64,000 nt of DNA from Spirogloea muscicola. Lineage: Eukaryota > Streptophyta > Zygnematophyceae > Spirogloeales > Spirogloeaceae. The notes under the pieces were generated by a model, which worked only from the letters and a program-made list of their open reading frames with translations, was not told the origin of the DNA and did not search any database. Made by a program: the position numbers and the translations under genes. Below are positions 14,078 to 60,946 of this stretch, one piece after another (the first letter of the stretch is position 1; each line of letters begins with the position of its first letter). Where the stretch lies: the NCBI GenBank assembly GCA_009602725.1, contig WELB01000075.1, positions 160,032 through 224,031 on the forward strand. The letters are read 5' to 3'.

Positions 14078-15892
14078 TTAGATCATGTGCTCCATGTGAG
14101 CAAAGTGGTCCATGTTAGCAAGATGTGGCTTGATTGAGGCATGGAAGTGGGCCGCAGCTGCGAGCAGCGCGCAGACGAGCTCGAAGACCACAAACTGTAT
14201 GGCGCTGCCGGGCACCGCGCGGAAGAGGCACGCAGGAAGGCCGCGGTAAAGCTCGCGCATCGACCCCTGGTCCTGCAACAGCTGCTGCACGACGTGCACA
14301 GGGCCCCTATACCGTGGCACGCTGAGCGAGTCTGTCTGCAGCCGGCTCTTGACGGTGTCAAACGGGTAGCTCACCTACAGCACCACCAGCAGCAGCACAG
14401 TGACGTAGATCAGCGAGCTCAACTCATACAGCCATCCACACGAAGTGAGAGCAGAGTGTGTGTAACAAGAGTTGCAGTTCATCTGGGTGTGACCTGCAAA
14501 TACTGCAGGTCACCTTGGCCCAGTAGCTCTCACCGCATAGTAAGCCATGCCCGCCAGCGAGCCCGCCGGGAGGATGCGCCAGAAGGACGTGCCAGCGGGA
14601 TGGGCGTGCCGGCTGGCGCCTCGGCCCTCGTGCTTGACGCCCAGCAGCGCCAGCATGAGGTCGTACACGCCTGAAGCACCCCAAGCGAATGGCCAACTTT
14701 GCTCAGCAGGCAGCATCTCACAAGGCAACCCCTACACACGCTGAGCTGCAGCACAGAGGCTGTGCACAAAGAGGATGGTTTTGAGTTTTGAGTCTATGTA
14801 CTCCTGCTGATGCTCCGCTGCAGAGTTAGTGGCATGGGACTCATGAAGCGTAAAGACAGGGTCAAATATTGGAGGGTCTAAACAGATAAGGGGTCAGCAG
14901 TTAGGCTGTCATGGAGCCAGGATGTGAGTATCGAGCGCTCACCAAAGAGCGCAAAGTCGCCGGTGACCTCCTTGAGGAGCTGCATTACCCAGCCGTAGTA
15001 GAGGCCAAAGGGCCCGCGGGCACGCACGATCTCTCGCGCGACTGCGTAGCTGTCCAGGACCTGCTCCGGCGCGCCGCCGCCCTTCCCACGCGGCGGCGTC
15101 GTGCCCCCGCCCGTGGCGGCGGCGGGCGGCCGGCGGACGCGGTGAGGCCCGCCGCCGGCGACCTGCATCCGGGCCTTGATGTGGTCGAATGGGCAATAGA
15201 CGACACTCTCCACGGTGCCGATGAGCACGCAGGCCAGCAGTAGGAGGTGCGGCGCGAAGACTGAGGCGCCCAGGCGGTCGCGCAGCCAGTCCATGGCGCC
15301 GAAGAGCAGCGCCACGCCCAGCGCGCTTTGGACCATTGGCGCGGGCAGGCCGCGGTAGAGGCCCGCCAGGCCCTCGCGGCGCACCGTCGCAGCCGCGCAG
15401 TGCAGCGGCCCCCGGAACGGCACCTTGTCGCCGCGCGGGATGTCCAGCGCCTGCGTCTGCAGCTTCGTCTTGATCGTGTCACACGGGTGGCCTGCAAAAA
15501 CCTCGCGCCGGACGCCAGTAAGCTCGTCAGAGTCGAACCAGGGTCGTCGAACGGCGGCAAGTCGATCTTGAGCTGATCCAGCTGTCGTTAGTATTGATAA
15601 TCACAATTGATCGCAATTATAGCGACGCTAAGCGCAAATAGCGACAATAATTTCCCGCAGACGGGGGGGGTTTTGCAGCCGTTACGGCGCACAGTCGTGT
15701 GACTGGGATCAGCCACAGTTCGGCAATGGCCGCATTGCGGCGATGTTGCCAAACGGTTGCGGAAGGCTCCAGCGGCTGGCCACCACGGCGAAGGCGAAGC
15801 TCGCGGCGGCAGCGGCGGCGGCGCTCACCGATGAGGATCTCCGCGACGCCGGCGCAGAAGCCGGCCACGACGCTGATCGTGGCGCTCTCCAT
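14078..15892 (-). CDS. Mitochondrial carrier family (SLC25-type) protein, 348 residues
   Basis: This is a solute carrier of the mitochondrial inner membrane (occasionally peroxisome or plastid). Four exons (15892-15829, 15491-14943, 14670-14534, 14374-14078) join at GT-AG sites with matching phases and give a complete 348-residue protein. Three repeats each carry the family signature after an odd-numbered helix: HPCDTIKTKLQTQ, CPFDHIKARMQ and YPFDTVKSRLQTD, with downstream glycine-rich LYRGLPA motifs in repeats 1 and 3. The start ATG at 15892 opens directly into helix 1 (VVAGFCAGVAEILIG), as usual for the family. An unusual Gly/Pro/Arg-rich insert follows the second signature. The repeat-1 signature resembles carnitine and amino-acid carriers, but the substrate cannot be fixed from sequence alone. 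Confidence 0.95.
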
Positions 15893-18498: not shown

Positions 18499-19845
18499 GA
18501 TCGTGTACTAGAAAGAAATGTAGGCCAAATGGCCAGGTACAAAGGCAAGCACATCTAAAAATCTACATAACCTACAGCAGATTGACCCGCTCAATAACCA
18601 CGGGTCAAAACATAAAGGTCACTACTCGATGCATGAATACTAGATGCCAGGAACGGAGCCCTTCTGCCACCTACTAGAGCTCGCCCAGCTTTCTGGTGCA
18701 AGGCACTAGCCTGAGCACGCTGCAAACAGGCCAAAACTCGTCGTCGCAAGAGCGACAGGTATGCAGCTGGCAAGCCCATCTCAGCCGGAAACACATCTGC
18801 ACGTCGAGTGTAGCCTAGATTGGCAATGTTTTGAAGCAGAGTGTGGAAGCGAGGACCCAGACAGCCAAAGATGTCGATTGCAGCTGGCAGGAGTTGATCG
18901 CATTGGGGGTAATCGGAGTAATGCCGCAGTTTTCTTTGCTCTGCTCCGCCCACTGCGTGCCCAGCAATGTGTGTTGATGCTGGGCCTTTATATGCCTCCG
19001 TAACAACAACGTCGACCAGGGCCCGTGGTCCTCCACCAGGTTGCACGCCCACAATGTCAAGTGTGCGGCGATGATGACGTCCCTGGGCGTCCGTGGTGAT
19101 AGGCATGATATTGTTGACTTCCACGACCGCACGGTAGCCGGCGTCGCGCATCAAGCCCGCCAGGGCATCGCGAAGGAGGTTGTGAATGCCCACCACTTCT
19201 GGTCCAGTGGGGCATCTCAGCATGTGAGTGGCGAGCACAGCACCCTCTGCACGGAAGCCGCACTCGCACTGGCGCACCCCAATCAGGCAATTAGGTGGGA
19301 GGCCGAGGAAGAGTTGAAGCGATGTCCGAAAGGCCTCGGAGCTGATGCTGAAGGCGTTGGCGACGGGGGGAGAGGTGATCCAGTCAGTGGCACCAGGTGT
19401 GGCCAGAGAAGTGAGTCTTGCCAAGCTCCTCGGATTGTTCTGAATCTCTGGCAGCCTCCTCAACCTTCTGCGGCGTTCGTCTTCCACTGCCGTAACCAGT
19501 CTGGATTGTGCCCCTCTATCAGAAGCTTGGGCGAGGGTGGAGAATGGCGTGAGTAGGGGTTGGAGAGAGGGGAAAGAGCTGATGGCTGAGTCGCGGATGC
19601 TCCTCAGATCCGCTTGGAAGGGGAAGGAGCCTTCCTCCACATTGCGTACAGGGTCGTGGAGGCAAGGGAAGCGCATGGGGAGCAGGGAGGCGATCTGGTG
19701 CCAGCAGCCCAGGAAGGCTGCTTGCGCCGTCTGCTCCAACGACCGGCAGCCAAGGCCGCCCATGCGAGTAGGGAGGGAGGCCTGGAGGGAAGCTGAAGCT
19801 GAGGGGCTGGCAGAAGCCAGCCAAAAAAGAATGGACAAAATCCAA
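18499..19845 (-). mobile_element. RLE-type LINE, family A, 3' part (longest copy)
   Basis: An intact 415-codon frame (19838 to 18594) covers the end of a non-LTR retrotransposon protein. It begins in the region after the reverse transcriptase (LPTRMGGLGCRSL). It continues to a zinc knuckle of pattern C-x-C-x11-H-x3-C (CECGFRAEG to HMLRC), and then a restriction-like endonuclease core with the D-x14-D spacing LDIVG to LVDVVV. This is the R2-like layout, in contrast to APE-type LINEs. The protein ends in HASSSDLYVLTRGY and stops, followed by a conserved 3' tail of about 100 bp. The reverse transcriptase is missing: the copy is 5'-truncated, as usual for LINEs. Confidence 0.85.
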
Positions 19846-19859
19846 AGAGCTACAGGAGA

Positions 19860-20263
19860 ATCACTCAGTAACCTCTGCTAAGCAGCCGCAGGTCGGAGAG
19901 GCTAGGCTCGTTGAAGTGGGTCCCCTGGCCAGAGCCAGAGGCAGCAGCGAGGGCTCTGCCGGCACGAAGGTCCGACGCCCGGGCCATAGACCTCTGCAGC
20001 GAGACGGCCAGGCGCATTCGATACACTTGCGTCAGCGACCCGACTGCAGGGAAGTCGACCGGCTCCCCATGGAAGCGACGGGCGATGGTGACCTGACTCC
20101 AGCAGACGGCTTCACCCTCCTGGGGGTCCTCATCGGCGCGCCGTCCTTCGTAGAGGGGCAGCTGCGAGCCCGCCTCGAGGAGCACCTTCAGCCTGCGGCC
20201 CGGCTCCCCGGATATCAGCTGGCTCTGGCCATGTTGACCAAGGCCATTGCGCTGAGGCCCCAA
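19860..20263 (-). mobile_element. RLE LINE, family B, 3' fragment
   Basis: It encodes the family B C-terminus (VYRMRLAVSLQRSMAR, then SLSDLRLLSRGY and stop). It abuts the family A copy at 19.85 kb on one side. On the other it runs into an oppositely oriented family B copy, so two family B pieces meet head to head near 20.08 kb. Confidence 0.8.
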
Positions 20264-21640
20264 TCTCTGACGCGGGCCATCCCGCCGCCCCCAGGGGCAC
20301 TCACGGCGTACGCCGGGTATTCAACGCAGGCATGGTGAAGAGCCTGGCGGCCCTGGTCTGCCACCAGGGCTTCCCCCAATAGCCTGCCGCTCTTCATCAG
20401 GCGACGCTACCCCTCAGTTACGGCGGTCTCGGCTTGCGCCCACTCGTCCGTTCCTGCCGGGCGGCGTACCTCGGCAGCTGGGCGCAGACAGCAGCCTCCA
20501 CGGCCCAGCGCTTCTTGGTCCGCGCCCGGCGTGCGCTGGAGCAGGCGGTGGTGGAGGTAGAAACGGGTGTGCTAACCTTCCAGGCGTCGTTACGCTCCGC
20601 CCACCAGGAGCTGCTCGCGGCGCACCCGGACCTGGCAGGCCAGGCGGTCTCCTTTGCGCACCTCGCGCACACCGCCGACCTGCGCGTCCAAGCGCGCTTC
20701 GCAGCTGCGATGGATAAGGCAGCCTTCACCACCACCTTGCTGCAGCTCCCCGAGGCCGACCTGCGCGGGCGCGAGCGACTCCACTCGGCCTCTTCCACGG
20801 GGGCAGCGGCGTGGCTCCAGGCCCTCCCCCTCCACGACGCCCTCACTCTCCCAGACGAGGTATTTCAGAGTGCCGTCCACCGGGTCCTGGGACTGCCGCC
20901 GCCATGTCTCCAGGGTGTGCGTCAGTGTGACTGTGGCGAGCGAGGGGCCGAGCCTGGGGAGCTGGCCGGTCATGTTCTGCGCTGCTCCCACGGCGGCGAG
21001 CGGACAGCGGCCCACGACCGCCTCCGGGACGCGAGGCATGGCATCCTGGTGGAGGCTGGCTTCTCCGTGGCAGCGGAAATCTCCGCCGTCATGCCGCTCC
21101 AGCAAACGGCCGACGGTCTCCACGCACGTTGCGTAGACCTTGTGGCCACCCCACAAGCCGGCGGGCCACGTCTTCTCCTGGACGTGGTGACCACCGACGC
21201 ATACGACCGCTCACACTCAGCCCAGTGTGCCGTCAAGGCTGGGTATGCGGTCGCCTGCGCCGCTCGGGCTAAGGAGCTCAAATGCGCCGATCATCCGCGC
21301 GAAGACGAGTTCTTCCCGCTGGCCATTGAAACGCATGGGGCGTTGGGCGCTCGGTGGCTCGAGCTGCTCAAACCAGCTCGCCCGCCACGCCATCGTCCGC
21401 CGCTTCCATGGGAAGCCGGTGGACTTTCCTGCAGCCGGGTCGCTGGCTCAAGTGTACCGTATGCGCCTGGCCGTCTCACTGCAGCGGTTCATGGCCCGCG
21501 CGCTGGACCTGCGTGCCGGGCAGAGCCCTCGCTGCTGCCTCTGGCGCTGGTCAGGGGACCCACGTCCAGGAGCCTAGCTTCTCTGACCTCCGCCTGCTTA
21601 AAAAAGCTTAGCAGGTGCAGAACCAAGAAAACTGCGGCAC
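20080..21640 (+). mobile_element. RLE LINE, family B, 3' half
   Basis: A long frame from 20434 encodes family B protein. It has the same order as family A: a post-reverse-transcriptase segment, the zinc knuckle CDCGERGAEPGELAGHVLRC and the nuclease core VDLVATP to LLLDVVTTDAY (D-x14-D). A preceding frame (20083-20338) is the segment just upstream, separated by a break near 20340, and the C-terminal part is shifted near 21370. The copy is thus 5'-truncated and frame-broken. Family B is more GC-rich than family A. Confidence 0.83.
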
Positions 21641-22260
21641 TACTTCGATTACCCCCAATGCGATCAGGTCCTGCCAGCGGCAATCGACATCTATGGCTGT
21701 CTGGGTCCTCGTTTCCACACTTCTGCTTCAAAACATTGCCAATCTAGGCTACACTCGACGTGCAGATGAGTTTCCGGCTGAGATGAAAGTGCTCGCCCAT
21801 TGAGAATAGGGGCTGGAACAACCAGCCCGAAAAAGAATGAACAGAGATGGGCTTGCCAGCTGCATATCTGTCGCTCTTGCGACGACGAGTTTCGGCCTGT
21901 TTGCAGCGTGCTCAGGCTAGTGCCTTGCACCAGAAAGCTCGTAGCAGCTCTGTTTCTGTTACTTAGCGCTTCCCCTGGCCCCCTTCTCGTACTCTGTTCA
22001 TTCTTTTTCGGGCTGGTTGTTCCAGCCCCTATTCTCAATGGGCGAGCACTTTCTTCTCTGAAAGCTGGGCGAGCTCTAGTTGGTGGCGGAAGGACTCCGT
22101 TTCTGGCATTTAGTATTCATGCATCGATTAGTGACCTTAATGTTTTGACCCGTGGTTATTGAGCGGGTCAATCTGCTGTAGGTTATGTAGATCTTTGGAT
22201 GTGCTTGCCTTTGTACTTGGCCATTTGGCCTACATTTGTTTATTTACACGAAATTTTCTT
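21620..22260 (+). mobile_element. Family A 3' fragments interrupted by inverted B-type tails
   Basis: 21620-21790 is homologous to the family A C-terminus (YPQCDQ, FHTLLLQNIANLGYTRRAD). 21790-21840 and 22000-22055 are inverted copies of the B-type tail hairpin module, enclosing 160 bp. Family A then resumes at about 22060 (HASISDLNVLTRGY, stop) and continues through its 3' tail to 22260. This reads as a family A copy into which oppositely oriented B-type tails inserted. Confidence 0.72.
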
Positions 22261-50796: not shown

Positions 50797-53700
50797 TTAT
50801 GAAAGTGAGTCAAAGTGGCCGTGGAGGGCCGCATCCACAATTCCCCGCATCTCCTCCTGGTGCTGCTCGAAGCTGCCTGTGGCCGTCGCCGCGGACGGGC
50901 TCCTACCCACGAATCTTACAATCCGATGCCCAGTAGCTGCCTCTGGGGTGGGGGGTAGAAGCTGCTGTAATGTCGTCGTCAATCTCGGCTGCATATACGG
51001 CCATGCACCTGCGTTCTTTGGCTCCTCCTGCCCAGGCCAAGAGTGCACAAACATTGCTATACTTTACCAAAGTTTACCCTTACTTGGAATGGGTGCACGG
51101 CAGATCATGCAGGCCACTCTCAACAATGACAATCACTTAGGATTCTGGGCTGCTGACCTGGACCCAGAGGATGTTCGCTGTGCGGTCATATCGCCGCAGG
51201 ACCACCGCAATACGGTCGTAAGGAAACGGCGCAAGTTGCTCCAGCCTGACGAGGGCTACATCATTCAACTTGTGCGCCCTCCTAGCATGAGCCAAGACAT
51301 AGTAGATCTGCACTGAACGCCCTGCAGTGTCTCAGAGGCGGAGCTTTGTAACTGCTGTTCGTAAATTGTACAGAACTAAAAGTGACATAAAGATCTCAAC
51401 AAGCCTCCGGAGCTCCTAACTTTGTTGACAAAGCAAGTGCTGTCTAGCATTGCCGAGCCAAGCAGTGCATCTGAGGTCAGTGGCCTTCACCTCACTTGCA
51501 CTCAGACAGAATCACACAGAACCAGACTCACCTTTCCAGAGCACAAAATGATGCGCCTCATCTGCTGCCGCGGAAGCAGGAAGTCTTGGGTATGGCGAAG
51601 ATTGTCAGCCCTCTCACCATCAGCTATCACTCTCCTGAGTACAGAAGAGTAGAGCAGCCGACACTTTAGTGACAATCAGGCCCCTGACTAGTATCAGGAG
51701 CTGCAAAGTGGCCACAAAATGACGAAGCTGTGCCATGTGACACAGACTTGATCCGAATATGTAAAAGTAGCAATGCTGACCTGAAGTATGTACCCTCGGT
51801 CATGTCCGAAAGGCTTGAAACACATGCTTTGTGGTGAAGCAAGTACTGCAATGCGAATCAGCAGCATTCGCATAGCATGCCTTAAGTCAAGCTGATGCTG
51901 CAAAGCTGTTCTCCAGCCTGTGTGCTGGTAAGGTACCTTGAAGGCAGGCCTAGGCCATGCAAGAGATGCAGACAAGGAAAGGTGCACTGAAAAGGATCAC
52001 CCAGAAAGCCCATGACTCATACCTTTGGACTCATCACCACTAGGGGCTTCGAGAAGGGTCTGTACATCTGTTCGGCAAGTCCACTAGGCACAATTGAGGT
52101 GGGGTGCTCAGCATGTTACTCAAGATGCATGTAGGACCGCTGCACACGAGAAGCATGCTGCAGGCAGCCTACATGGTTCTGTCTCATCAAAGATTCTTAC
52201 ACATTGTGATCATACCTGCCGGCGGAGGACGTGAAAGTAATTTGCAGGGTTGGTAACATTCACAATGGATCTGCAAGCCAAAAGGAAGGGTGGGCAGTGC
52301 ACAATGAATGAGGAAGAGAAAGTTTTGAGTCATTCAACTCAAGCAGAGAGTCTCATATTCCTGCCTACAACATGCCTAGACGCTACAGAGCAACAATGCA
52401 GGTCAGCAATGGCAAATACAGCTGCAATCCATGGAGGTCGCTATGTGAATGCACTAGTACAGGTTGTGCTCCTTCTCCATGTTGCGCCGCATCCAATTTA
52501 TCATTGCTATTGACCAATCTTGTCTGCAGATTGAGGTGCCAGCATGTCATACAAAATTTTAGCGCCTGCAAGCAGAACTGGTCTGGCACAACACAAGCAT
52601 AAGCAGCGCTCCTACAGTAGATGGCACATAGTGTGCTCACTGGTTGATGCGTTCTGACTTGCCCAAGTCATTATTCTGCAACAGCTCTTCTGCTTTTCTT
52701 GTGCTCATCTTCCCGGTTCCCGATAGAAAGGAGATCAAATCCTGTCTTTCTAAGAAGCCCTTGTTTCCCTTGTCTGCAGCCAAGAACCCCTCTTGGATCT
52801 CAGCTTCATGACGAGGGTCTCTTCCAGGTTGGTAGTCTGGGTCGTCGTTGCAGAGCTGCTCATCACCAACACAGGGCAAAAAGCTTCACAACGTTTGCAA
52901 TTTTGATGGTGATAGTGCCTACTTAGCTAGAGAACATTCTCTGTTCTGCCTCTTTACTCCTTGTTCTGCCTCTTCACTTCCCTGCCTTTGATAAGTATGA
53001 GATTGCCAAAGCTTGAAACTGCGTGGCATTTTGGCACAGACGCGGACCCTCCCGTACCATTGAACAGCATACCAAGCTCTGATTGCATGCGGAAGGGCTC
53101 ACTGCTCATCGTCACAGAATGCTGGCACTGGAGAAGAAGTAACTAGCATGAGTCTAGGGCAGCTTGAATGCATGGCTTTGTTAAGGGTCCCATCAATGTC
53201 CCACCTGGAGGAACCTCTCAAGCCTGGCAGAGCTATGATCAGGCCCTTGCCCATCATATCCATGTGGCAGCAGGAGGACCATGTTGGTTGGTGTCATCCA
53301 CTTCTCTTCCCCGCTTGCTATGAAGTTGTCAATTATCTGCTGTGCGTTGTTTGCAAAGTCCCCAAACTGCAGCAGTATGGAAGCAGCTTTAGGCAGACTG
53401 CGCCACAATAGTTGCCAGCTTAGAACGTGGGCATTCCGTGTGCCCAATTATGATTCACCACCTAACATGCACGTCCAAGGCTGCAGTCCAGATTGACTGT
53501 AGCAGGCTAATGACTTTTCCCCCATTACAATGTGTACACAATCGTCTGCGGAAATGATGGGGCACACCTGTGCTTCCCAGATGACAAGGGCATTCTCATT
53601 CTCCAAGCTGAAGCCGTACTCAAAGCCCAGGACCCCAGCTTCAGAAAGGTTGGAGTTACAGATGATGAACTGCGCTTGTTTACCCGGAGCAATGTTCTCC

Positions 53701-56700
53701 AGTGGCACGTACCTGCAGACATTCACCACAGAGCAACTTAGTGCAAATCTAAGAGATGACAATGCTTACATGCAGCAAGTGCTGTAGCATGAAAAGAGAG
53801 GTCCTTAAGTACAAGAGTATAAAACAACACTGCAGTTGTGGACAACAAATTAGTCACTTCCCAACTGATAGCCTGACGCTGTGATTACATGATGCATCCA
53901 CAGAGGCCATTCAAAATGATATAAAGCCAATCAAACACACGCACAAGGATGCAAGTGCTTTGGTCGCCTTTCACCTCTCTGCAGTCATCTGGTCGTGAAG
54001 CACTGCATGCCTCTGATTGAAGGTGCCCCTCTCAGAGTCCTGCCCAGACAGTCGCACTGGGAAATGCGGGTGGCTCTGCGGCGTTTGAGAGATTGATGCG
54101 TCTGCATGTAGCATCAGTGTCCTGCACCCCAGTGGCACCATCAGAAGTTAGCCATCAGCAATGTAGGATGAAGACCCAGTCAATGGCTCACAATTCTAGT
54201 GTAATTCTGGCTGATATAGAATCTACAGAGCTATCTGGTAGCTCGCAATGACAAAGAGCAACAGCATGATATGAAGAAGCCCAAGTACTACATGAACAAT
54301 GACTTGAGCACTGACAAGGCAGACACATGTGAGACAGATGCCTTTCAGCCTTCACATACTTCCACGTGCTATATAATGTTTGAGAAGTTGTTACCCAAAT
54401 GCTAGCGCCTCTGCCATGGCAAAGTCTATCTGTTTCCCAGTCTCTATAACTATGCTCTATCCAAAACGTACAAAATTTCGTAAATATCAAAATTCTCGAC
54501 CTGGATGTCAGTAACCGGGCCACCTGAAAACAGGGCAATTTCACACAGAGAAGATATTGTGACCTGTGAGACTGACCTGATGTCATAGTGAAAATGTGTT
54601 GCTTACATCTTACCTCCTCAAAGGACAATGCTATGGTGAAACCAAAGAGCAGATGATGATGCAGCCTGCTTGATGTGACAATTTGTGTGGAGATTCTCAC
54701 ATCTGGGTGCAGGTTGAATCCTTCAGGCACCACGCAGATGGCCCTTCCCTGCAACATTGTGATAGCGCCATTTATAAGACGACTGGCGCATCACAGCTCC
54801 AATACAACAACCATGTGTCCTTGTAGGACAGCTCTCCATTCTCCAGCAATGGCATCCTTTCGCAAGTGGCCTCGAGAGTTCTCCCGCCAAGCAAGCTTGA
54901 GCAAGGTTGGGCTGCATGAGCCCTTGCTTGCCTGCCATACAATGTTGAATCATTGCACAAAGGCAGACCCACAGATGTACGACAGTCATAAACTGATGGA
55001 AGGACAAGACACCTTGCTGAGCCTGTGCAGAGTGTAGGGTCACGCAGAGGGGCTGACCACTCGTTGGAGGGTCACTTCTGGCAGGCCAGTCGGCTGTACC
55101 ACCCGATCTTTGGTCAGCGACCCCAATGCCTGCCCTGTGTCACGGCATCCATTTGCTGTGAAGCGAGCACCTCGCCTTCTGCCATGCAGTCTATAGGTTT
55201 ATTTCAAGACAGATTGCATTTGACTTAAGCTGTTTATTGGGTTCCTTCTGAAGCTTATGCTTGCCAGCGCTTGCACCTTGCCAGTTGCTAGCTAGCCAGT
55301 CCTGGGGCGTGGGAGAGTGCTCCTCGACCCGAGCATACTCATCCTCGAAATTTGCCAGCATGCCTGTCGTCCAGTTATCGATCATCTGTTGACGAAATGT
55401 GAAATATATGAGTCCTTGATCCTCATGTCCAGGTCACTGACCATCCGCTATACCTATGATAATAACTTACAACAAGATTTGAGCCTATGTACAGGCCATT
55501 CTTCAATCAAGCATATCAGACTGGCTGTAAGGAATTGTAGAGCGCACCATACACAAATTTGAGAGTACGATCTTCTAACCATAGCCTAGCCTAACATTCT
55601 GTATACAAGAGTACATTCCTCAAATGCACCAGGTCAAACTGGCCAGAGAGAGGAGGTTTACAATCACATACTTCTTGGCTTATGATGCCTTCGTCCAGTA
55701 GTTGTTGCGAGTATTGTTGCAGCACAGTGGGGTGATCTGCTATTCTCCTGTAGGACAGTGGCTGTGTCACTCTCGGATCATCCTGTACCGGTAGGACCAC
55801 TTTGGATGAGGATTAGAGCAGAAAGCAGGGAAGCAGCAGTTCAGTAGCATGAAAAGAGCAGACAAACCCTAAGTCAAGTGCCAGTCCTTATGTCATAGTA
55901 TATACAATGAGCGACATGAGTGCCTGCACTCCGTTATACAGTCCCCCAAGATGTGGAAAGGGCCCGTATCAACAAATAAAGGAGAGAAAGCTTTCCTCCT
56001 TGTCAGGAGGAAAGCTTTCCTTGTCAGACAACAGATTTTCTTCATGTCTTACTCATGACATGTGCATTACACTAGCAAAGCATAAGCTCTGTAAACAAAC
56101 CAGAACTGCTAGGGAGGTAAGACCTGCTCGTTGTGGCCATGTCGCCTGTAGCAAACTAGGTCAATTACAACATCATGGTGAAACAACTGCGAAATGGCGA
56201 CAAGCAAGGCAAGCGCTTTAATATAGGCCAACACAGCTGCCCAAGGATAACATCGCAACGCAAGTACGGTTGAATACAGAGCTTCCATATACAACGTATC
56301 CTGCATTTGAGATTGGGTTTGATGCTTAGGGTTCAAACCATCAAACCCAATCCAATCTGACTCTAAATCTGTCGGAAATCGACGGCCAACTGGCAGGCGC
56401 GAGCGACTGCCTCAGGGTCGTCACCATTCACGTGGAATATGGGTGCTCCAACTGCCTGTACCAGCAACTTGTGAGTTGGGGCACACTGCTCAGAGCCATG
56501 GATGCAAAGAAGTACATCGTCCAACAAAAGCATCAAAGAAGATTGTTATGTCAAGGTGTTCACCTTGGCCACGTCGCTTGGATGGGGGGTGGATCTGGCA
56601 AGCTTGGGATCGGTTGTGAAACCAATCTGGTTATTTATAATCACATGCACAGTTCCCCCAGTGTGGTACTCGGGCAAGTTCGACAGCTGCATCGCAAGTA

Positions 56701-59700
56701 TACAGATTAAGCAGGTGAAAGCGTCGCTGCCATCATTCCACCCTTGCAAGTCCGGTACCACAGAATTAGCTTCGTGCTAAGATTTTTCCCAAGGGTGAGA
56801 ATATTGTCACACCTCCATAATGCAAGAGCCATAATGCAAGAAGACTATGCACACAAGGATACAGTGCTCCTTAATAATTTGGATCTCTAAGCAGCAGCAT
56901 GTCGGATGACAACAATCCTGACCTGGAGCACCTCTGACACAATGCCAAGCCCGGCAAAAGCAGCATCCCCATGCAGCAGCAAACCCTGCAGCCATGGAGG
57001 AAATAGCAGCATAACAGAAACAATCAACTCCAAGCGAACTGCTACACAGTCCAGATCAACTTTGCAGTGTAAAGATAAGACGTACATATTTAGGCGGTCA
57101 GCCTGAATTGTAAAGTGACCTTCACATACTGCAGACATGATTGAAGTAGCTACAATACGAGCTATTTGACTGATGTAGCTAGAATACTGAGGAAGTGGTG
57201 GCGAAGCCTAGTTGCTTCTCATAATTGGCTATTTAGTAATCAAGCAACAGCACATCCTTCTGCGTGCTTCTTTGCAACAAGCTCTGACTAACCGGTTAAG
57301 GATTGGTTAAGATAACTAAATGTTGCTGACTAGCAAACTCCCTGTGGGTAAGGGACTTGTTCATGCAATGAAGGTTGTCAAGGTGACTCTCTTCAGTACA
57401 AGCTTGTGACGACGAGATCCTGGTGTTTGACCTTCAGGACCCTGCCGGATAGGGAAAACGGGAAATGTACCCCCACTAGCACAGTCTGAAAAGAGACAAC
57501 ATTGACCTGCAAATGAAGCATCATTGTGGCTCTCACCATGACCCTTGTCCGATTGTTGTCCTCCAAGAAGACTTGCTTGGCCCTCACTTTGCCTACGACC
57601 ACAGAGTCCACCGACTCTAGGTGGCTTGGATTAGGTGACAGCGACAATTGTACCTGCGAGCCAGTGACAAGAGCTGCTGTGCATTTATGTAGTGACAACA
57701 AGCTATAGACCTCCGACTTATTGCTCCCATAGATTGTGGAGCCTGTGAGGACTGGATGATACTTTCCGTGATGGGAACACTTCATGCATTGCAAGCATGT
57801 ACAAAGTGAAAGATGTGAGAGACGTAAGCCATTCTAAACCCTTACATAATACTGCTCGCAGATCAGTAGGCCTCAGTGTCATGAGCTCATGTCTAGACAT
57901 GTTGAGGCGAAACATACCGCGGGACATCAAGATGATGTGCACAATTGTCATACCTACCTCCTTGCCATTGACTTTAAGCAAGCCACGGGTGCCTAGGTGG
58001 TACTTCACATCGCCTACATTTGAGTATTTGGCCTTGCTGTGCAAGTGGAACTCGGCAGTAATTGCGCCTAGCGGCTTGGATAGGAGGGAGTGAAGGACAT
58101 TCAGTCGGCCCCTGGACAGAGGCACCAATTGACAAATGTGACTATCAGAATGAGAATTTTGGTGCTGACTGTTAATCTCTTTCTCCTATCAAGAGCAAGT
58201 ATGTAGGACTAGATAAAAGGTCAATAAAACTAAACCCAGCACCTTTAACACAAGTACATTGCTGTAGCTTGACACCGTTTTTGCCTCATACATTTCCTCT
58301 ACCAGGCAAGCATCTCAGCAGATGTATAGATGCTTGACTTGTTGCCAAGACTACTTGGACTACTTACCTGTGTGCCATTCCCAGCTCAATGCTCTCCACC
58401 CCTGTTTGTACTGCCCTCTGTACGGACATCAATGCCCTAAAGCTCCAAGAATCAGTAGAGCAAAAAAACATCTGGCATGTAAATCCGTGCAGCTACTTAC
58501 AGGCAAGAGAAGTCCATGGGTGCATGGCCATCAAGAGCTGCTGATCTCTGAGGCAGTAAGCAGCACTGCTGACTTTCATGGGAAGGCACTGGTCCTACGA
58601 CAGTAGGTGCTCTGGTGGTCAGACAGCCACGACCTCTGTGAGGGACCAGAGCCCAGGGATGAGACTCTCGCAGCCCTCGATGCCAAAGCGCTTGGATGAC
58701 GGAAACTTTCTGGCGAGGAAGCGCTCAAAGTGGTCTGCCGCGAAAGGGGGCCACGGAGTGGACATGAAGGTGGACCCAAGGACAGCTGTAAAAGGGAAAA
58801 GATGGGTCTGCAATGGGGCAGCAAGCTGGCCATACCCAGTGCCCGACCTGCATAGAGGAGCCGGCGGAAGAGCGCCTGCCGCTGCGGCGGCGTGAAGCGG
58901 CTGCGGCCGGGCGGGATCTCAAGATGGCGCTGCAGCCAGGCCTTCTGGTCCGGCGATGGCAGGTGGGCGTACTCCGCCGTCAGGGTGCCGCAGTAGGCGG
59001 CGCGCAGGAGCGCCACGAGCTCGCGCACCGTCCAGAAGAGCTGCGGCGCCCGCGCGATCTTGAGCTGGTCGCCCAGATAGTAGCTGCGCTCGCAGCGGCG
59101 GCGGCATCAACAACCTATACCCTAACTCTAAACTCCTGAATTCCTAAACCCTAAACCCTGTGAAGCTATCCTGCAGGCATATGTTACCATTCTCAATTGT
59201 TCTGATCTTCATGATGCTATCAGCTTGCACTGAGCAGGAAAAGGGGCTTGAACCCTCAACCTCAGCCTTGGCAAGGTTATACTCTATCATTAAGCTATTC
59301 CACTTCTCTGCTTTGCTTTCCTTCTCTTTTCTGGATGGGCCTAAGTAGATATGAACTACTGACCCCCTAAAAGTAACCCTAGATTCAAACCCTTATACTA
59401 ACATCCTAAACGCTAGGACTCAAACCCTAAGCTAAACCCTAAATGACGGCAATTAGCCTGTCAGCCGAGGTCAAGGGCCTGCACATATCGCAAGGACGAC
59501 AATCCGGAGGCCCAGTGGCTGCCATGAGAGCTCACCGCCGGTCTGGGTCGACGCCAGCGAGGCAGACGGCGGCGAGGTCGAGGTCGGGGAAGCGGCGCAG
59601 CAGCGCAAAGAGGTCGCGCGCGTCAGCGGGCTCGCCGGCGGCCGCGTCGTTGCCGTCGCGCAGCGGGCCCAGGGTGCGCCCCAGCGGGTCTGCGGCGGCC

Positions 59701-59953
59701 CGCCGCCGCCGTGAGCCATCAGGCTCAACTCGCCGGCGGCCTTCCGGCTGAGCTCCCACAGCCCAGGCGGCACCGCGAGGGGCTCACCGAGCGTGGCGGC
59801 GAAGTGGCCGCGGTTGCGGAAGGCGCGGACGAGCGACGCGATGCGCAGCGTCTCGCCAATGACCTTGATGTCCGTCGCCGGCGCCGGCGGCGGCGGCGAC
59901 GCGGCGGTGGCTGGGGCGGCGGAGCTGAGCCCTCGGCAGCGTCGGCAGCGCCA
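50797..59953 (-). CDS. OGDH: 2-oxoglutarate dehydrogenase E1 (OGDH) with an EF-hand-like insert; 5' end in the gap
   Basis: E1 is the thiamine-diphosphate subunit of the mitochondrial TCA-cycle complex that decarboxylates 2-oxoglutarate. About 28 exons were placed, among them 59953-59788 (partial), 59689-59536, 59083-58848, 58785-58647, 58436-58368, 58111-57958, 57653-57537, 56985-56923, 56686-56564, 56455-56369, 56186-56124, 55782-55672, 53712-53568, 53366-53205, 52855-52641, 52523-52461, 52270-52216 and 51027-50797 (stop). Family motifs are present: [127 protein letters not shown]. About 71 extra residues between CNDDPD and the FHVLRRQ block form two EF-hand-like units. The exon ending at 56369 lacks a GT donor. 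The exon at about 55.08 kb is uncertain. N-terminus and targeting peptide lie in the Ns. Confidence 0.96.
55987..56018. repeat. Perfect 13-bp inverted repeat in an OGDH intron
   Basis: Arms 55987-55999 and 56006-56018 (AAAGCTTTCCTCC and its complement) enclose a 6-nt loop. A further partial copy of the right arm follows. Confidence 0.85.
56311..56352. repeat. Perfect 14-bp inverted repeat in an OGDH intron
   Basis: Arms 56311-56324 and 56339-56352 (GATTGGGTTTGATG and its complement) surround a 14-nt loop. It begins 17 bp past the end of the OGDH exon at 56369 that has no GT donor. Confidence 0.88.
59112..59445. repeat. Telomere-like tracts flanking a tRNA-Gly relic in OGDH intron 2
   Basis: CCCTAAA-type units occur at about 59112-59158 and 59365-59445, on either side of the tRNA-like sequence at 59233-59303. 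On the OGDH sense strand they read TTTAGGG. Confidence 0.85.
59233..59303 (-). pseudogene. Mitochondrial-type tRNA-Gly(GCC) relic
   Basis: On the minus strand a near-complete tRNA is visible: TAGCTTAATGATAGAG D arm, an anticodon loop with GCC (CTTGCCAAG), and the T arm GAGGGTTCAAGCCCC. It closely resembles plant mitochondrial tRNA-Gly. The first three acceptor pairs are mismatched, so it is probably a dead insertion of organelle DNA or RNA rather than a working gene. Confidence 0.7.
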
Positions 59954-60946
59954 NNNNNNNNNNNNNNNNNNNNNNNNNNNNNNNNNNNNNNNNNNNNNNN
60001 NNNNNNNNNNNNNNNNNNNNNNNNNNNNNNNNNNNNNNNNNNNNNNNNNNNNNNNNNNNNNNNNNNNNNNNNNNNNNNNNNNNNNNNNNNNNNNNNNNNN
60101 NNNNNNNNNNNNNNNNNNNNNNNNNNNNNNNNNNNNNNNNNNNNNNNNNNNNNNNNNNNNNNNNNNNNNNNNNNNNNNNNNNNNNNNNNNNNNNNNNNNN
60201 NNNNNNNNNNNNNNNNNNNNNNNNNNNNNNNNNNNNNNNNNNNNNNNNNNNNNNNNNNNNNNNNNNNNNNNNNNNNNNNNNNNNNNNNNNNNNNNNNNNN
60301 NNNNNNNNNNNNNNNNNNNNNNNNNNNNNNNNNNNNNNNNNNNNNNNNNNNNNNNNNNNNNNNNNNNNNNNNNNNNNNNNNNNNNNNNNNNNNNNNNNNN
60401 NNNNNNNNNNNNNNNNNNNNNNNNNNNNNNNNNNNNNNNNNNNNNNNNNNNNNNNNNNNNNNNNNNNNNNNNNNNNNNNNNNNNNNNNNNNNNNNNNNNN
60501 NNNNNNNNNNNNNNNNNNNNNNNNNNNNNNNNNNNNNNNNNNNNNNNNNNNNNNNNNNNNNNNNNNNNNNNNNNNNNNNNNNNNNNNNNNNNNNNNNNNN
60601 NNNNNNNNNNNNNNNNNNNNNNNNNNNNNNNNNNNNNNNNNNNNNNNNNNNNNNNNNNNNNNNNNNNNNNNNNNNNNNNNNNNNNNNNNNNNNNNNNNNN
60701 NNNNNNNNNNNNNNNNNNNNNNNNNNNNNNNNNNNNNNNNNNNNNNNNNNNNNNNNNNNNNNNNNNNNNNNNNNNNNNNNNNNNNNNNNNNNNNNNNNNN
60801 NNNNNNNNNNNNNNNNNNNNNNNNNNNNNNNNNNNNNNNNNNNNNNNNNNNNNNNNNNNNNNNNNNNNNNNNNNNNNNNNNNNNNNNNNNNNNNNNNNNN
60901 NNNNNNNNNNNNNNNNNNNNNNNNNNNNNNNNNNNNNNNNNNNNNN
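59954..60946. other. Assembly gap (Ns)
   Basis: 993 unresolved bases. It hides the OGDH N-terminus, the presumed divergent promoter and the first exon or exons of the HIT zinc-finger gene. Flanking sequence is GC-rich on the OGDH side. Confidence 1.

Follow-up and report, generated by a model that had tools for sequence, protein, structure and literature searches.

The window, by which we mean the whole stretch of DNA that was analysed (64 kb), contains on its minus strand a predicted gene for 2-oxoglutarate dehydrogenase E1 (59872-50797). The exons were assembled one by one from protein continuity and GT-AG sites into a model of 28 exons and 1010 amino acids, which has GT-AG at 27 of 27 junctions, is consistent in frame and has its sole stop codon at the end. 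At the N-terminus the model is incomplete: its first base is a choice within an open frame, not a known start, and a gap of Ns lies upstream (59954-60946). The predicted protein exceeds the cut-offs of two E1 equivalog models, with 1001.8 bits for NCBIfam PRK09404.1 (cut-off 764) and 891.9 bits for TIGR00239 (cut-off 770). In three pieces it aligns with the solved E1 chains 7wgr_A and 8i0k_A and with bacterial chains. The C-terminal half (475 residues) alone stays below the cut-offs of the E1 equivalog models and matches Transket_pyr (PF02779, 126.1 bits) and OxoGdeHyase_C (PF16870, 160.6 bits; cut-offs 27). The features discussed below are the following:

50797-59872, minus strand: E1 gene, 28-exon model, 1010 amino acids (frame, GT-AG, NCBIfam PRK09404.1)
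53205-53366, minus strand: exon upstream of the insert, ending in ARLERFLQ; its His lies opposite E. coli E1 residue 729 in the protein alignment with 2jgd_A
52641-52855, minus strand: exon 21 (215 nt, phase 0 in, phase 2 out), encoding LCNDDPD, the first EF-hand unit and, of the second unit, the entering helix, loop positions 1-9 and two bases of codon 10
52739-52774, minus strand: EF-hand-like loop 1 (loop pattern; EF-hand_7 and EF-hand_6 matches)
52641-52669 and 52523-52517, minus strand: EF-hand-like loop 2 (DLGKSERIN plus two bases of Q, then the rest; exon model, loop pattern)
52461-52523, minus strand: exon 22 (63 nt, phase 2-2), encoding the end of loop 2 and the exiting helix; its last Asn is invariant in 10 aligned E1
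52216-52270, minus strand: E1 exon downstream of the insert (E1 alignment)

The sequence-only reading had claimed two consecutive in-frame exons inside E1, which was borne out by the frame, the GT-AG junctions and the 1010-residue model. The segment 52461-52855 consists of exactly two minus-strand exons (52855-52641 and 52523-52461), and these join the flanking E1 exons in frame with GT-AG at every junction there. Exon 21 starts with the E1 residues LCNDDPD and continues uninterrupted into the extra sequence; exon 22 completes the insert and ends with HNL, the Asn of which is invariant in 10 of 10 sequences of an alignment of the window with 9 of 19 bacterial loci (alignment A1). The frame is open across all 92 codons of the two exons (stops per frame 0, 6 and 4), and codon usage fails to single it out (0.061, 0.042 and −0.079 bits per codon over the three frames). 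A separate nested gene was rejected because a single open frame in exon 21 encodes E1 residues as well as EF-hand residues, and because exon 22 has the conserved Asn. The idea that the two exons entered an old intron together, as a single cassette, was rejected on account of their flanking phases, 0 and 2.

Relative to bacterial E1 the insert amounts to 86 extra residues (alignment A1). From the SAR[LI]ERFL block to YFH..R the distance is 103 residues in the window versus 17 in bacteria (13 of the 19 loci read by a strict pattern), and the short form of the region was seen in the sequence stretches of all 19 bacterial loci. In the human chain 7wgr_A 12 residues lie opposite 78 in the window; the human loop is thus already somewhat longer than the bacterial one, and the window adds a net 66 residues relative to human E1. 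The earlier estimate had been about 71 residues added and about 14 in human E1. When the E1 piece with the insert was compared with the PDB, the best stretch stopped at query residue 169-178, before the insert, in 15 of 15 matched sequences (alignments viewed for 5 of the 15).

As judged from its sequence, the E1 gene is otherwise ordinary and apparently intact. The exon 4/5, 10/11 and 16/17 junctions each have a frame-consistent GT-AG path, that at 10/11 with loss of five conserved residues. The conserved VDFRQ ends the exon 56455-56369 (minus strand) and is followed by atttag instead of GT; 23 frame-keeping paths lead on from this exon end, and among the 6 listed the sole GT-AG path without added residues loses VDFRQ, the other 17 paths being GC-AG. 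Just past it, at 56311-56352, two perfectly matching 14-bp arms (GATTGGGTTTGATG) form an inverted repeat around a 14-nt loop. This junction may have a non-canonical intron or may have received an insertion recently. Another addition relative to human E1, of 13 residues directly before RLSGQD (54121-53975, minus strand), may represent a short intron that either stays unspliced or was misjudged, and the model requires a 46-nt intron (54500-54455, minus strand), its shortest by coordinates. Elsewhere in the window an open frame matches the mitochondrial carrier family (14881-15600, minus strand; PF00153, E = 9.4e-25). The window's two longest open frames (20383-21744, plus strand, 454 amino acids; 18594-19877, minus strand, 428 amino acids) match no Pfam family at E ≤ 0.01; stretches in them such as LPLSYGGLGLR may correspond to the ends of LINE reverse transcriptases.

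The splice sites of exons 21 and 22 were scored along with those of the then-current model, from whose 19 exons 18 donors were taken. The donor of exon 22 (CCT/GTACTA) is the weakest of the 18 (−4.45); the others score 3.1 to 10.3, where 3.1 belongs to position 58634, an exon 4 end later revised to 58647, and the next lowest, 3.79, belongs to the exon 21 donor. For the acceptors, the scores are 3.45 (exon 21) and 2.66 (exon 22) within a range of 1.69 to 10.06. Skipping of exon 22 (63 nt) keeps the frame; skipping of exon 21 (215 nt) or of both exons (278 nt) breaks it. With one exon between 53205 and 52270 there are 97 frame-keeping alternatives, all of them without exon 22 by construction. 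Among the best 8 of the 97, six retain exon 21 wholly or partly, the top one ending it early at 52659, and two swap it for a microexon of four or five residues at 52382, with loss of the EF-hand and of LCNDDPD. A cryptic donor at 52788 (ggg/gttctt) would permit in-frame loss of most of the EF-hand. The alternatives are opposed by the conservation of LCNDDPD in exon 21 (CNDDPD in human E1), by the Asn of exon 22, which does not vary among the aligned E1, and by an EF-hand match that spans both exons.

Three EF-hand models match the spliced insert of 86 residues, among them EF-hand_6 and EF-hand_7 (PF13499; E = 5.2e-5, 24.0 bits). EF-hand_7 gives 21.7 bits (E = 2.7e-4) with the open frame of exon 21 (82 residues, ten of them upstream of the acceptor) and a weaker 19.6 bits (E = 0.0012) within the 475-residue C-terminal half, all three scores being under the curated (gathering) cut-off of Pfam, 30 bits. 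The gain in score from the exon 21 frame to the spliced insert is not a clean test, the query ends differing too. When the insert was shuffled at constant composition, 0 of 8 shuffles matched an EF-hand model and 4 of 8 gave one non-EF-hand family each (E 0.045-0.091). A phmmer search of 177,635 distinct PDB sequences with the spliced insert returned calmodulins first (E = 5e-5), residues 5-73 aligning with the calmodulin C-lobe, and among the 227 distinct sequences at E ≤ 1 the best 60 are all named calmodulin; with the exon 21 frame the best match is likewise a calmodulin (E = 7.3e-4). The continuation of the calmodulin match into the residues of exon 22 supports this exon.

The sequence-only reading had called the insert a degenerate EF-hand pair and had set an EF-hand profile and a fold of the insert as the check. 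Profile and pairwise searches support the pair, though below the Pfam cut-off: the similarity was there (E = 5.2e-5), the gathering score was not (24.0 versus 30 bits), and the fold obtained for exon 21 is of low confidence. AlphaFold, given exon 21 alone and without relatives, returned a model with a mean pLDDT of 58.5 and helices at 14-26, 37-45 and 52-61, which fall where the EF-hand alignment puts the first entering, first exiting and second entering helices. With this low-confidence model Foldseek gave 26 matches at E ≤ 10 and none at E ≤ 0.001; several of its top rows are calmodulin or EF-hand proteins by title (E 1.5-6) and were not counted as evidence. A search of the unspliced window in all six frames found no canonical EF-hand loop, and 10 base shuffles had none either, so that no donor gene is seen nearby; loops split by an intron would escape such a search. 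Profile and pairwise comparisons show a relationship of the insert to EF-hand pairs that exceeds chance.

Both 12-residue loops have Asp at positions 1 and 12, Gly at 3 and a hydrophobic residue at 8, just as had been noted earlier. Canonical loops, according to an excerpt of PMC7465447, coordinate via positions 1, 3, 5, 7, 9 and Glu 12, and replacement of Glu by Asp at 12 lowers the affinity for Ca2+ and shifts the selectivity toward Mg2+. In both loops of the insert the side-chain ligand at position 3 is missing and Asp replaces Glu at 12; loop 1 has Lys at 5, loop 2 has Glu at 6, where Gly is usual, and the residues at position 9 (Glu and Asn, respectively) are permitted ones. Against the loop pattern PS00018, loop 1 fails at 3 and 5 and loop 2 at 3 and 6. 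These features tell against the calcium module that had been suggested, and the Asp at 12 suggests that the insert might bind Mg2+ weakly.

The calcium site of animal E1 is DADLD, which stems from exon 4b (excerpts of PMC7969005 and PMC9177970). This motif follows the LDPLG block, and opposite DPLGILDADLDSS of chain 8i0k_A the E1 of the window has no DxDxD counterpart of it, in a comparison for which the last residues of the query were taken from the earlier exon 4 end (58634), later set at 58647.

Relatives were sought with searches seeded by short exact peptides, by which distant relatives may be missed. In a viral contig collection the insert had 2 pattern matches, neither of them a relative, and alignment A1 had 34 pattern matches with 0 relatives. 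In a genome contig collection the insert plus downstream E1 found the 19 bacterial loci, which match only from query residue 83 or 85, i.e., from the final two to four insert residues. The eukaryotic E1 compared were PDB chains only, and the collections covered (PDB, viral contigs, genome contigs) yielded no E1 from an alga or a plant. That no relative carrying the insert was found in the viral or genome contig collections weighs against the explanation that we favour below. An EF-hand insert in E1 is not described in the accessible portions of open-licence papers that deal with EF-hands together with oxoglutarate dehydrogenase in green algae, in Chlamydomonas or Chlorella, or in algal fusions, nor in excerpts of PMC7050145, PMC12699882, PMC9177970, PMC7969005, PMC8890496, PMC10203282 and PMC10003691. 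To annotators of such genomes the insert may already be familiar.

His157 of the query used for the PDB comparison lies opposite residue 729 of the E. coli E1 chain 2jgd_A, an active-site histidine. The insert starts 18 residues later, at residue 175 (residue 172 by the bacterial alignment), and occupies the loop of the pyrimidine (PYR) domain after the stretch beginning at His157; because that stretch starts at this His, the lobe formed by the insert would lie near the mouth of the active site. For human E1o, cross-links of Lys728 to the lipoyl domain of E2o are reported in an excerpt of PMC10003691.

We propose, with a probability of about 0.5, that the E1 gene gained an 86-residue module from a calmodulin-like EF-hand pair, that the calcium ligands of this module were mostly lost, and that it now forms a folded, calcium-independent surface lobe with a steric or docking role. 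Established within this explanation are the gene, the insert and its reading frame, the similarity in sequence to EF-hand pairs and the missing ligands. The PYR-domain loop would have acquired the EF-hand pair, the loops of which would later have lost most of their calcium ligands. On the surface of the enzyme the insert would fold, without needing calcium, into a closed lobe of paired helix-loop-helix units, and the lobe would act as a steric or docking element, e.g., for lipoyl domains or for another matrix protein. Rigid or bound to a partner, it might affect the access to the active site or the docking of lipoyl domains. We prefer a folded surface module that is calcium-independent or weakly tuned by metal. 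With loops as degenerate as these, the insert may serve for docking or as a structural element and not as a switch operated by calcium.

A working sensor of calcium (or of calcium and magnesium), in which the ion would open the lobe and move the segment with the active-site His, giving the lineage a control apart from the animal one, is possible but not the likeliest reading. It is compatible with what both loops retain (Asp at 1, an acid at 12 and, at 9, a residue that is permitted there), with the calmodulin C-lobe as the best PDB match, with the lack of a DADLD counterpart and with the start of the insert 18 residues after the His aligned with E. coli 729. The loops nevertheless offer no side-chain ligand at position 3, a Lys at 5 in one, a Glu at 6 in the other and Asp at 12 in both, so that PS00018 is failed by each, and with these ligands missing and Asp at 12 we consider a working sensor unlikely. 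To the same degree unlikely is the wider notion that a calmodulin-like lobe built into E1 near the entrance of the active site would constitute a control of the TCA cycle that responds to metal or to a partner and that arose independently of DADLD. Somewhat easier to accept, yet still doubtful, is a neutral or relic surface loop without function that is tolerated because it lies outside the catalytic core. The degenerate loops, the human loop that already exceeds the bacterial one and the lack of conservation support from the searches for relatives agree with it. Free decay, however, would erode what is still observed, namely 92 open codons in two exons and two units that continue to match calmodulin or the EF-hand pair profile, a match that takes in the beginning of the exiting helix, which a separate exon encodes.

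That the insert is no EF-hand at all and only a charged helical insertion made EF-hand-like by its composition would fit the 24.0 bits, which lie below the Pfam cut-off, and the Foldseek search without a significant match, made with a model of low confidence; against three matching EF-hand models, 227 PDB sequences headed by 60 calmodulins and eight shuffles of the same composition without an EF-hand match, it is highly improbable. Compatible with any of the other readings, and itself rather improbable, is alternative splicing of exon 22, which would yield two forms of E1, one with the complete and one with a truncated EF-hand pair. Its skipping is neutral for the frame and its donor is the lowest of 18, but skipping would remove the Asn that is invariant in 10 of 10 aligned E1.

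Direct calcium control of 2-oxoglutarate dehydrogenase has been described in animals, and for plants a comparable role of mitochondrial calcium is described as less clear (excerpt of PMC8890496). An E1 with an EF-hand-derived domain is a concrete place to test for control by calcium, magnesium or a partner outside animals, and it suggests that the PYR-domain loop of E1 tolerates an entire extra domain.

Among known systems the solved E1 enzymes (7wgr, 8i0k and E. coli SucA, 2jgd) resemble the window protein over its whole length, as the 1001.8 bits to the equivalog and blocks such as HGDAAFAG testify, and differ from it by the 86 residues inserted between LCNDDPD and SIVNV. An EF-hand regulatory domain joined to a mitochondrial protein is also found in the ATP-Mg/Pi carriers (Harborne and Kunji 2018). 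In those carriers the domain is an N-terminal addition with working calcium sites; the insert of the window is internal and its loops are degenerate. The animal calcium-sensitive OGDH isoform (exon 4b, DADLD; excerpts of PMC7969005 and PMC9177970) has a calcium-related sequence in the same enzyme. Its DADLD, however, is a short, unpaired DxDxD site near the N-terminus, elsewhere in the enzyme, and is absent from the E1 of the window. With the calmodulin C-lobe and PF13499 the insert shares, as aligned in sequence, a putative paired helix-loop-helix register, Asp at 1, a hydrophobic residue at 8 and an acid at 12; it differs from them in lacking the ligands at 3 (both loops) and 5 (loop 1) and in sitting within the domain of an enzyme.
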